Of a DNA stretch of 64,000 bases, positions 6,187 to 9,028 are shown in pieces. The stretch lies in NCBI RefSeq assembly GCF_900106045.1, contig NZ_LT629802.1, forward strand, positions 5,456,001 through 5,520,000. Direction: 5' to 3'. The position numbers and the translations under genes were made by a program. Source of the stretch: Pseudomonas mucidolens. GTDB lineage: Bacteria; Pseudomonadota; Gammaproteobacteria; Pseudomonadales; Pseudomonadaceae. Under the pieces are notes generated by a model. It made no database searches. It was not told the DNA's origin and saw nothing but the letters and a program-made list of their open reading frames with translations. Every line of letters starts with the position of its first letter. Position 1 is the first letter of the stretch.

Positions 6187-6195
6187 TGTGGGAGC
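6187..6195 (+). repeat. Left half of a REP interrupted by the IS110 element
   Basis: TGTGGGAGC here is the first nine bases of the REP form seen complete at 48096. Joining it to the sequence at 7350 (GGGCTTGCTCGCGATAGCG) restores a perfect REP, so this is the upstream flank of the insertion. Confidence 0.85.
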
Positions 6196-6218
6196 AACTG
6201 TCTTCACCATGCCATTCG

Positions 6219-7136
6219 TCACCGCCACTCAGTGCCATCTCGCAACATGGCATTGAGCCTAATCAGCAGTACACGCATGCAGGCGATGAGCGCGACCTTC
6301 GCGCTCTTACCTCGCTCTCGAAGGCCTTCGTAGCGTGCCTTGAAGTCGGGCTGATGGCGGATTACAACCCAGCAGGACATGTACAGAGCCCGTCTGACAC
6401 GGGCTCTGCCTCCATAGATATGTCGCTTCCCGCTGTGATTACCGCTGTCGTCGTTCAAGGGCGCGATACCTGCCAAGGCCGCAACCTCACGGCGATCAAG
6501 CTCACCTAGTTCGGGCAGATAAACCAGCAAACTCGCGGTGGCAACCGTACCGATACCTTTAACAGAGATGAGCCGCTGGGCTTTTTCTGCGTCCAGTTCG
6601 TGCATGCTCTGATTGATGGCCTTATCAAGTTGCCTGATTTGCGTTTGCAGGAAGTGAATATGGCCTTTGATCAGCGCAATAACGGCTGGTAGCTGGGCTT
6701 GCTGAAGACGGCGCTTATTGTCGTCTCGTTGCTGAACGAAATGCTCGCGCTGCTGAACCAGCTCGCGGAGCGCTTCACGCTCAGGCGAAATAACCTTGCT
6801 GCTTGAGGCATTCAGCACTTCAGCAAAGTCTGCTAGAACGGCCGCATCAATAGCGTCAGTCTTCGCATTCTTGCCCATCGCCACGGCAAAGGATCTGGCT
6901 CGGCGAGGATTGACCCTGAGCACCTTGAAGTTTGCGCCTTGCAGAGCCGCCATGGCATTACGCTCATAGCCCCCGGTGGCCTCCAGCAAAATCAGACTGA
7001 CTTCAAACTGACTCAATCGTCGAATCAGCTCAAGAAATCCTTCTGAAGTGTTTGAAACATCGAAACCTTCGCTCTGTGGTTTAACCCAGACGACAAGGTT
7101 TGATTTTGAGATGTCGATACCGACCCAGGAAATCAT
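6219..7136 (-). CDS. IS110-family transposase (DEDD recombinase)
   Basis: A 305-residue transposase. The N-terminal RuvC-like DEDD domain shows GIDISK (first Asp), LEATGGYER (Glu) and KTDAIDAAVLADF (two Asp). A central helical region rich in Gln and Arg follows. The C-terminal Transposase_20 domain shows LISVKGIGTVATASLL and ALAGIAPLNDDSGNHSGKRHI, followed by the conserved serine region. The gene is full length with no frameshift, so the copy may be active. In this family the recombinase works with a structured bridge RNA from the element's non-coding end, described separately. Confidence 0.93.
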   Translation of the reverse strand: MISWVGIDISKSNLVVWVKPQSEGFDVSNTSEGFLELIRRLSQFEVSLILLEATGGYERNAMAALQGANFKVLRVNPRRARSFAVAMGKNAKTDAIDAAVLADFAEVLNASSSKVISPEREALRELVQQREHFVQQRDDNKRRLQQAQLPAVIALIKGHIHFLQTQIRQLDKAINQSMHELDAEKAQRLISVKGIGTVATASLLVYLPELGELDRREVAALAGIAPLNDDSGNHSGKRHIYGGRARVRRALYMSCWVVIRHQPDFKARYEGLRERGKSAKVALIACMRVLLIRLNAMLRDGTEWR

Positions 7137-7164
7137 GGCAAAACCCTCTTACACTCAGATGTGA

Positions 7165-7316
7165 GAGTGCTCTGGCTTTGCCCACGCTTGTGATTTCGAG
7201 TGGCTGCTCGTCCAACTGTTCGGGCTTGTAGGCCAGAGTGGAAAGGTGGATGGCAGCTCGGCTCCCACACGTGCTTTGAGCACCGCGGACTTGCAGCTTG
7301 CCATCCACCCCTCTCA
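7165..7316 (-). ncRNA. Predicted IS110 bridge RNA with target-binding and donor-binding loops
   Basis: Read on the minus strand, 5' to 3'. The first stem is made by 7309-7295 and 7258-7245 (14 bp, one bulge). Its loop holds GCAAGTCCGC (7294-7285), which matches REP left half GCAAGCCCGC with one G-U-compatible change. A GTGCT/AGCAC hairpin comes next, then TGTGGGAGC (7269-7261), the complement of the other REP half. The second stem is made by 7238-7232 and 7176-7170. Its loop holds ACAGTTG (7219-7213), identical to the element's right end, and CACAAGC (7192-7186), complementary to its left end. Order and polarity match the LTG-RTG and LDG-RDG arrangement known from IS621. The RNA ends are estimates. 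Confidence 0.78.
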
Positions 7317-7349
7317 CCCCAGAGTTTATTCCTAGATCAAGACACAAGC

Positions 7350-7430
7350 GGGCTTGCTCGCGATAGCGTAGTGTCATTCAACGAATCAGTTGGCTGATAC
7401 ACCACTATCGCGAGCAAGCCCGCTCCCACA
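7350..7430. repeat. Right part of the interrupted REPIN
   Basis: GGGCTTGCTCGCGATAGCG begins here. The inverted partner ACTATCGCGAGCAAGC...CGCTCCCACA ends at 7430. Together with 6187-6195 this forms a complete REPIN like that at 48096-48187. Confidence 0.88.
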
Positions 7431-7451: not shown

Positions 7452-8747
7452 TTATTCGTGGGCCGCGACGCCTTTGAGGTACGCCGCAGGTTCAGCGCCC
7501 AGATTGTTCAGCATCCGTTCGCTGTACCAATCCACAAAGTTCACCACGCCAAACTCGTACGTCTTGGAGTACGGCCCGGGCTGGTAAGCGGTGGAGTTGA
7601 TCCCGCGCTGGTTCTCTTCGGCCAGGCGTCGGTCCTGGTTGTTAGTGGCGTCCCATACCAGGCGCATGCGCTCGACGTCGTAATCCACGCCTTCCACGGC
7701 ATCCTTGTGGACCAGCCATTTGGTGGTGACCAGGGTTTCCTGGGCGCTGATCGGCCACACGGTAAAGACGATGATGTGATCGCCCATGCAATGGTTCCAC
7801 GAGTGGGGCAGGTGCAGGATGCGCATCGAGCCGAGGTCCGGGTTTTTGATCCGGCCCATGAGCTTCTGGCAGCCTTGCTTGCCATCGAGGGTCATCGACA
7901 CAGTGCCTTTGAGCAGTGGCATGCGCACGATACGGTTGCGCAGGCCGAAGCTGGCGTGGGCGTAAGGAATTTTTTCCGCATCCCAGGCGGCGGCGGAGGC
8001 GGCCACGTGGTCCTTGAAAGCCTGGTCGGCGCGCGGGTCGGTAACGTCGTCCCATTCCAGCAGGGTTTTCAACAGCTCGGGGTGCGACGCGTTGCAGTGA
8101 TAGCACTCGCGGTTGTTTTCCAACACCAGTTTCCAGTTGGCTTGTTCCCTCAAGGTGGTTTGCAACGCCACCTTGGTGTTTTCCATGTCGTACGGTTCCA
8201 TGTAATGGGTCAGCGTCGCCAGGAAGTCATCGATGGCCGGCGGGTTTTCGGCCAGGCTGATGAAAATATAGCCCCCCGCGGTCTTCACGTTCACGGGCTT
8301 GAGGCCGTACTGCTGCATGTCGAAGTCGGCGCCCATCTCGGTGCCGGCGAACAACAGGCGCCCGTCCAGTTCGTAGGTCCACTGGTGGTAATGGCAGACC
8401 AGCTTGGCGACCTTGCCCTTGTCGCTGGTGCACAAGCGTGAACCGCGATGGCGGCAGACGTTGTGGAACGCGTGTACCACGCCTTCGGCACCGCGGATCA
8501 CGATGATCGGATTCTTGCCCACTTGCAGGGTCAAGTAGTTGCCTTTGGCGGGGATTTCGCAGGTCATGCCGGCGATCAGCCATTCTTTCTGGAAGATCTC
8601 CTGCATGTCGATATCAAACAGCCGTTCATCAGAGTAAAACGGCTGGGGCAGGGAAAAGGTGCGTTCGCGCTCTTGCAGCATTTGCGCGGTGGCCTTGCGT
8701 GCGGGTTCCAGCGGATCGCCGAGGCTTAAGGTTGCGGTGACGTCCAT
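7452..8747 (-). CDS. gbcA: Glycine betaine demethylase, Rieske oxygenase subunit GbcA
   Basis: A 431-residue Rieske-type ring-hydroxylating oxygenase alpha subunit. The Rieske cluster ligands are C98, H100, C118 and H121 (CRH...CHYH). The mononuclear iron motif ECYHCNASH follows later. The open frame extends upstream to 8999, but the ATG at 8747 is preceded by GAGGA at 8 bases and gives the usual N-terminus (MDVTATLSLG). GbcA removes one methyl group of betaine as formaldehyde, giving dimethylglycine, with GbcB as reductase. It is divergent from gbcB across a 281-bp control region. Confidence 0.94.
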   Translation of the reverse strand: MDVTATLSLGDPLEPARKATAQMLQERERTFSLPQPFYSDERLFDIDMQEIFQKEWLIAGMTCEIPAKGNYLTLQVGKNPIIVIRGAEGVVHAFHNVCRHRGSRLCTSDKGKVAKLVCHYHQWTYELDGRLLFAGTEMGADFDMQQYGLKPVNVKTAGGYIFISLAENPPAIDDFLATLTHYMEPYDMENTKVALQTTLREQANWKLVLENNRECYHCNASHPELLKTLLEWDDVTDPRADQAFKDHVAASAAAWDAEKIPYAHASFGLRNRIVRMPLLKGTVSMTLDGKQGCQKLMGRIKNPDLGSMRILHLPHSWNHCMGDHIIVFTVWPISAQETLVTTKWLVHKDAVEGVDYDVERMRLVWDATNNQDRRLAEENQRGINSTAYQPGPYSKTYEFGVVNFVDWYSERMLNNLGAEPAAYLKGVAAHE

Positions 8748-9028
8748 CGTATGTGTCCTCAAGGCCATTCTGTGTGGCCGGGATAAGTGGCTACGGTTAT
8801 TGCATTGCAAGGCGTAAAACTGTGTATTTGATGGGTGCGAGTGTGGGCCCGGCTTCATCCGTAACCTTGTCCATGAGCGACATGCCCCACTCTGTTCCCG
8901 ACGCGCAACCCCAGTGGTATAGGGGCTGGTTGCGATAAGTATGTGAATGTCGCTGGCAGGTAAATGGACGAATCTCGCCTTACGCAGAATCGCCAGCATA
9001 AAGCCGACGTACGGCCGTGGAGAACAGC
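8748..9028. promoter_or_regulatory. Divergent gbcA-gbcB control region
   Basis: This non-coding gap holds the promoters of both gbc genes. In Pseudomonas both are activated by the AraC-family regulator GbdR in response to betaine or dimethylglycine. A dyad AGCGACAT (8876-8883) / ATGTCGCT (8947-8954), 63 bases apart, is the only clear symmetry I see. It could hold activator half-sites, but that is a guess. Confidence 0.5.

Follow-up and report, generated by a model that had tools for sequence, protein, structure and literature searches.

The element and its recombinase

The window analysed here is a stretch of 64,000 nucleotides from Pseudomonas mucidolens, and all coordinates refer to it. It contains an IS110-group element of ~1.15 kb (1152 bp between the cores, 7346–6195), which lies on the minus strand within a REP pair, downstream of a long open reading frame (7452–8999) that by eye looks like a Rieske-type oxygenase gene. 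The main parts of the element are:

6193–7348, minus strand: IS110-group element with a CT core at each end, one of 13 identical copies
7347–7348, minus strand: left copy of the core CT
6193–6194, minus strand: right copy of the core CT
6219–7136, minus strand: gene for a DEDD recombinase (transposase) of 305 aa

The recombinase has the domains of the IS110 group, a DEDD RuvC-like N-terminal domain and a C-terminal Transposase_20 domain with a serine (Pfam PF01548, E = 2.6e-25, and PF02371, E = 3.5e-17). It scores 224.6 bits against the NCBIfam model NF033542, 'IS110 family RNA-guided transposase' (cut-off 140), and the only PDB sequences that it matches at E ≤ 0.001 are those of ISCro4 (5.8e-30) and IS621 (3.6e-26). 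Residues D8, E52, D94, D97 and S231, which from their positions we take to be the catalytic residues, are invariant across 18 aligned sequences. Judged by these matches, the protein belongs to the IS110 family. The layout of the element is likewise that of the IS110 group: the left end (LE, 7346–7137, 210 bp) holds the non-coding RNA, and the right end (RE, 6218–6195) measures 24 bp. An IS1111-type layout, with the non-coding RNA in a long right end, was ruled out by this short RE and by the position of the RNA upstream of the recombinase gene.

A predicted two-loop RNA carrying four guides

The initial annotation had read the non-coding segment upstream of the transposase gene, 7165–7316, as two stem-loops forming a bridge RNA. 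This segment does fold into two main stem-loops, at −78.3 kcal/mol (z = −4.7), and none of 200 shuffles was equally stable. The 5' end given there, ~7316, was retained, and the RNA probably ends at ~7140–7160, so that its 3' end may lie past 7165. The RNA, its guides and the two halves of its target are:

7140–7317, minus strand: predicted bridge RNA with two main stem-loops, its extent estimated from the −10 box and the fold
7285–7294, minus strand: left target guide (LTG) GCAAGTCCGC, in loop 1
7261–7269, minus strand: right target guide (RTG) TGTGGGAGC, in loop 1
7213–7219, minus strand: left donor guide (LDG) ACAGTTG, in loop 2
7186–7192, minus strand: right donor guide (RDG) CACAAGC, in loop 2
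7349–7357, minus strand: left half of the REP target, GCAAGCCCG, followed by the core CT (7348–7347)
6187–6192, minus strand: right half of the REP target, CCCACA, after CT (6194–6193)

The empty site reads GCAAGCCCG-CT-CCCACA. Loop 1 had been said to match both halves of this REP, and the match holds: the LTG differs from the left half at one position, where the guide has U and the top strand C (an rU:dG wobble), and the RTG is the exact reverse complement of GCTCCCACA. The matches claimed for loop 2 were found as well. The LDG is identical to 6201–6195, the right end of the element, and the RDG is complementary to GCTTGTG, its left end; guides that match the element's own ends are a mark of the IS110 group. 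In each loop the 5' guide corresponds to the top strand of a left half and the 3' guide to the reverse complement of a right half. This polarity and the order of the guides, LTG/RTG and then LDG/RDG, agree with those of IS621, as had been proposed.

We compared these matches with 5000 dinucleotide shuffles of 7165–7316. An LTG with at most one mismatch arose in 353 of them, an exact RTG in 32, an exact LDG in 61 and an exact RDG in 715, and all four jointly in none. The LTG and RDG are thus weak when taken singly, but the set of four is not. A chance match as the source of the guides was ruled out by this joint result together with the guide–target covariation described below.

Thirteen copies in one genome

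The 13 copies in the P. mucidolens genome are identical over the 1149 bases compared (1149/1149). All are inserted at (C/T)CCG|CT|CCC in one orientation relative to the REP, and so share a core dinucleotide, CT, as members of the IS110 group do. The left half is GCAAGCCCG in 10 of the 13 and GCAAGTCCG, GCCAGTCCG and GCTTGCCCG in one copy each, GCAAGTCCG being a perfect match to the LTG; the right half is CCCACA in 11, CCCACC in one and CCCGCC in one. Aligning every copy with its flanks had been suggested as a check on the guides, and it placed 13/13 at matching REP sites and none at a site unrelated to loop 1.

Intact AGYCCGCTCCCAC sites number 80 in the genome (78 C-type and two T-type, with one in a backwards-read control), against 11 C-type and two T-type REP sites that are occupied, a comparison that is no more than suggestive of a preference between the two types. 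The count of CTCCCACA, 333 versus 172 in the backwards control, is too unspecific for use. Matches of the bridge RNA model (R1) in this genome number 13, one per copy, and none is a stand-alone bridge RNA. The neighbouring REP pair gave weak matches to Rfam microRNAs, which lie far below the cut-off and were set aside.

Conservation of the fold

Over 26 aligned sequences, the RNAalifold consensus contains 35 pairs, 17 of which have changes on both sides in one sequence or more. Of the cells, 97.5% hold standard pairs, versus 91.0% in column shuffles, and only 34–48% of cells are paired when the partners are slid by 1–3 columns. The number of further pair types, 36 versus 32.0 shuffled, was reached by six of 500 column shuffles; the other four measures were reached by 0/500. 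The two-loop non-coding RNA with a conserved fold that characterises the IS110 group is thus present. Across the same 26 sequences the LDG is invariant except for its last base, as is the ACAAGC of the RDG throughout, so there is no donor-guide covariation to examine.

One further helix may close the RNA:

7311–7317, minus strand: GTGAGAG, possible closing helix of the bridge RNA, complementary to CTCTCAC at 7167–7161

This helix is present as the outer helix of the Rfam sX15 model (see below) and absent from the RNAalifold consensus. CTCTCAC has two alternative partners, GTGAGAG and GTGTAAGAGGG (within 7144–7155), the latter covering the likely ribosome-binding site of the recombinase gene. 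The choice between them is a possible switch between folding of the bridge RNA and translation of the recombinase.

Guides and targets change together among relatives

A survey with the recombinase at E ≤ 1e-60 gave matches in 29 of 398 Pseudomonas genomes, that of P. mucidolens included. Copies from the matching genomes were fetched and named relatives added, giving 196 loci with a recombinase match; the protein search comprised 1021 proteins, of which the best 120 were listed, and in a search of 1112 plasmid records the best place in each was below 60% identity. Guides were set by an automatic rule relative to the inner hairpin, for which 120 of the 196 loci were usable. Dropped were 72 loci without the CTTGTGTC left end, 57 of them L140–L198 (relatives 37–47% identical), and four without the inner hairpin pattern. 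A further 11 of the 120, with a missing or short flank or N, were left out, which leaves 109 for the covariation test. These include repeat fetches of the same copies, and the test uses one row per guide haplotype with its commonest target. For the haplotype of L027 that target came from a different copy and is out of register, so it counts against pairing.

Co-variation of guide segments with targets had been named as a further check. Among 18 guide haplotypes, LTG positions −5 to −1 match the target at 75 of 90 positions (shuffled mean 55.6, maximum 70) and the RTG at 89 of 90 (mean 74.8, maximum 87), and in both cases 0/50,000 shuffles reach the observed value. Reduced to 13 rows, one per distinct set of the last five LTG bases, the LTG matches at 54/65 positions versus 36.4 (0/50,000) and the RTG at 65/65 versus 53.0 (1/50,000). 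These shuffles ignore relatedness, and the stronger part of the covariation is, in our view, the RTG match, which is nearly complete, together with the changes between similar proteins. Seven haplotypes outside the setting of the rule were scored with slightly widened left-end and hairpin patterns, L243, L248, L250 and L255 having been eyed beforehand; their LTGs match at 25/35 positions versus 20.0, a value reached by 327 of 20,000 shuffles. Where a right flank was available, in two of the seven, the RTG matches at 5/5 positions each.

Individual cases illustrate the pattern. Guide and target both read ATTCG in genome G018, and the right guide GTAGG faces the target CTCCTAC in G363, Luteimonas and others. 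In G161 the guide is TTCGTCCC and the target TTCGCCCC, with a right guide TAGGAAG for CTTCCTA. The proteins of L035 and L036 are 73.8% identical, and both guides and both target halves differ accordingly. Between L137 and L139 (84.5% identical) the left guide has changed, and each fits its own target one position better, a small margin. By eye, the targets of the relatives appear to be REPs. The loop 1 target guides thus covary with the target, as in the IS110 group, with G165 (below) excepted.

Several other loci are recorded here as observations. Among the 72 dropped loci, the guides of G338 and of a second element in G188 match their targets by eye and are uncounted. L090–L098, from the same two genomes, represent a distant IS110 subtype in which upstream TGTGCCC and AGTGAG match the target around CT; this target is un-REP-like by eye. 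R1 matches in other Pseudomonas genomes were fetched at 20 places, 10 of which are cut by a contig end. No recombinase match was found at three of these matches, L250, L255 and L257. L255 appears by eye to be an internally deleted copy. At L250 (G126) a bridge RNA lies in a REP-like flank and the fetched 3 kb contain no recombinase match; this copy is decayed or an orphan. L244 (G265) has, at 1300–1710, a tandem pair of bridge RNAs upstream of one recombinase gene, with N between them, which may be an assembly join.

Exceptions to the pairing rule

Four results do not fit the simple rule. In genome G165 (L078–L080) the element has inserted three times, between different flanks, at GCCCC|CT, and the LTG there reads GCCCG. 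The model found no other bridge RNA in that genome (three matches), and L027, whose protein shares 82.4% identity with that of G165, has a guide that fits this same target. LTGs of the GCCGC type, together with L122, match only at a 3-nt offset from the inner hairpin, versus 2 nt. LTG positions −8, −7 and −6 match in 5, 5 and 11 of the 18 haplotypes, so the long left guide of the P. mucidolens element is not general. Finally, the proteins of L026 and L038 are 97.7% identical and share a target, with guides one base apart.

A candidate promoter across the circle junction

A putative promoter element lies just upstream of the predicted RNA:

7323–7328, minus strand: −10-like box TAAACT of the bridge RNA, a putative promoter element

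When the RE end ACAGTTG is joined to the LE start CTTGTGTC, the circle reads TTGCTT, 17 nt, TAAACT. We propose that circularisation, by joining the ends around CT, completes a promoter, TTG|CTT – 17 nt – TAAACT, whose −35 box spans the RE–LE junction, 17 nt upstream, and exists only in the circular form. A TAnnnT box at a spacing of 16–17 nt occurs in 33/33 distinct LE heads, and at 15–18 nt in 783 of 16,500 shuffled heads. The junction promoter would, on this pattern, work in the P. mucidolens element.

An Rfam sRNA family on the opposite strand

The bridge RNA segment is also matched on its other strand:

7160–7323, plus strand: segment matched by the Rfam family sX15 (RF02234), running antisense to both bridge RNA and recombinase gene
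7150–7155, plus strand: antisense −10-like box TACACT, just before the sX15 start at 7160, a putative promoter element

The sX15 match covers the whole segment and passes the gathering cut-off (57.9 versus 55 bits). Rfam models the strand opposite to the bridge RNA, and its entry describes only a Xanthomonadaceae sRNA. Of 20 relatives searched, 15 have an sX15 match (E ≤ 0.01) antisense to the bridge RNA, 12 of the 15 below the gathering score. In another bacterial family, the one that includes G409, a match was present in 35 of 198 genomes, 22 of these above the cut-off. From that family we fetched 30 sX15 loci, one per genome (L104 and L259–L287), counting all matches per locus and taking the strand of sX15 as that of the Rfam model. 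An IS110 recombinase gene starts on the opposite strand within 40 nt (20–29) of the sX15 5' end at 21 of the 30 loci, and none of the 30 has such a start on the same strand within 200 nt. The other nine loci, five of them at contig ends, have no adjacent recombinase start. A literature search, which did not extend to the original sX15 description, returned no publication joining sX15 with IS110.

In the clade of the P. mucidolens element, a TAnnnT box on the antisense strand is present in a fixed stretch of seven positions in 27 of 29 distinct tails (1101 of 14,500 shuffled), and anywhere in the last 40 nt in 29/29 (4376 of 14,500). The box shares positions with the run that precedes the ribosome-binding site of the recombinase gene, and this run by itself could conserve its bases. 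We tentatively suggest, at somewhat under even odds, that in this gammaproteobacterial clade the bridge-RNA loci of IS110 elements have a second gene built into their opposite strand. It would encode an antisense RNA, an 'anti-bridge', and have a conserved −10 box of its own just before the recombinase start; sX15 and the Asr9 RNA of ISPpu9 would belong to this group. By pairing to the bridge RNA and to the leader of the recombinase gene, such an RNA would set the rate of transposition.

Discussion

We conclude, with a probability of roughly 0.94, that the element is a transposon of the IS110 group that resembles IS621, is guided by a bridge RNA and inserts at one fixed position of its host's REPs. 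The anatomy of the element, the guide–target match, the target consensus and single orientation of the 13 copies, and the covariation both within the structure and between guide and target are all seen directly. For this system we infer transcription, RNA–protein binding and catalysis. In the proposed mechanism, an excised circle would join the right and left ends around the core CT, the sense RNA would fold into a target loop and a donor loop, and the DEDD/Ser recombinase would exchange strands at CT.

Two other explanations were weighed. The recombinase protein itself might read the REP, the REP-like stretches in the loop being remnants of picked-up REP sequence. All 13 copies in the genome share one target, so that recognition by guide and by protein are inseparable from this genome alone, and in G165 guide and target disagree at the base adjacent to the core. 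It is the relatives that speak against this account: their loop segments keep one register within a conserved stem-loop and vary along with the target, and guide and target change even between proteins that are 74–85% identical. We therefore consider recognition by the protein alone very improbable. The claim that the element is RNA-programmed for REPs is supported by its family domains, guide order and guide–target covariation, with the exception of G165.

The functional RNA might instead be the antisense strand, an sX15- or Asr9-like RNA with its guides read in reverse. The sX15 match is on that strand, and ISPpu9, a REP-targeting IS110 element, has an abundant and stable antisense RNA, Asr9, over its recombinase leader (PMC8450116). 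The 24 pairs common to the folds of both strands are neutral, with G-U and A-C cells equal (3 versus 3), and 10 of 26 single sequences are no more stable as sense; on the same alignment RNAalifold gives −43.8 kcal/mol for the sense strand versus −29.9 for the antisense. The sense guides moreover have the polarity of IS621, and over 130 cells from 13 guides, four guide–target differences are wobble-compatible as sense and none as antisense. Polarity, wobbles and consensus energy together favour the sense RNA, which we hold to be the guide strand, and leave a guide role for the antisense strand barely credible.

The closest described system is IS621, which itself targets REPs. As described in PMC11208160, it shares with the present element a DEDD recombinase, an RNA upstream in a long left end, a target loop followed by a donor loop, the polarity of the guides, the CT core, the REP target and, putatively in the present element, a promoter across the RE–LE junction. 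The two differ in protein length (328 residues in the IS621 PDB chain versus 305 aa, at a match of E = 3.6e-26) and in the REP, here a Pseudomonas sequence. The match of the right guide is 9 nt long in the P. mucidolens element, with the core and the preceding base included; for the 3' guides of IS621 the published figure is four to seven (PMC11208160).

REP targeting by Pseudomonas IS110 elements has been in print since at least 2006 (PMC1525189). ISPpu10 of P. putida, compared here by its description, resembles our element in its REP target, its 2-bp repeat (PMC1525189) and its bridge-RNA guides, which Durrant et al. predicted together with target and donor (Extended Data Fig. 10 legend, PMC11208160). 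ISPpu9, again by its description in PMC8450116, is alike in its REP target, in a structured 5'-UTR over the recombinase start and in an antisense sRNA there. It differs in the flanking repeat, published as AG at the 5' end of the recombinase unit, versus CT, and in an additional downstream sense sRNA, Ssr9 (PMC8450116). As an aside, the ssr9 unit is described as having A and B boxes at its bounds and an internal B-AG-A junction, with orphan copies at sites apparently unrelated to REPs (PMC8450116), and by analogy it reads like a bridge-RNA-only mobile unit.

Since bridge RNAs (2024), REP targeting by IS621 and the predicted guides of ISPpu10 are already in print, the element is a new example of a kind already known. 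The initial annotation had offered its guides as the molecular basis of REP targeting; this is supported for the present copy and is not new for the type, the ISPpu10 guides having been predicted before. As an example of this known kind of RNA-guided transposon, well supported by comparison, we find the element convincing.

The natural guide–target pairs, in 18 haplotypes from this element and its relatives, show how the address in a bridge RNA is changed to suit target variants in different hosts. They are useful in framing rules for the design of bridge recombinases: most of the match lies in some 5 nt to either side of CT, and the left side tolerates a wobble. A further outcome is a link between an Rfam sRNA family and IS110 elements, which raises the question of whether bridge RNAs are routinely controlled by antisense RNA.
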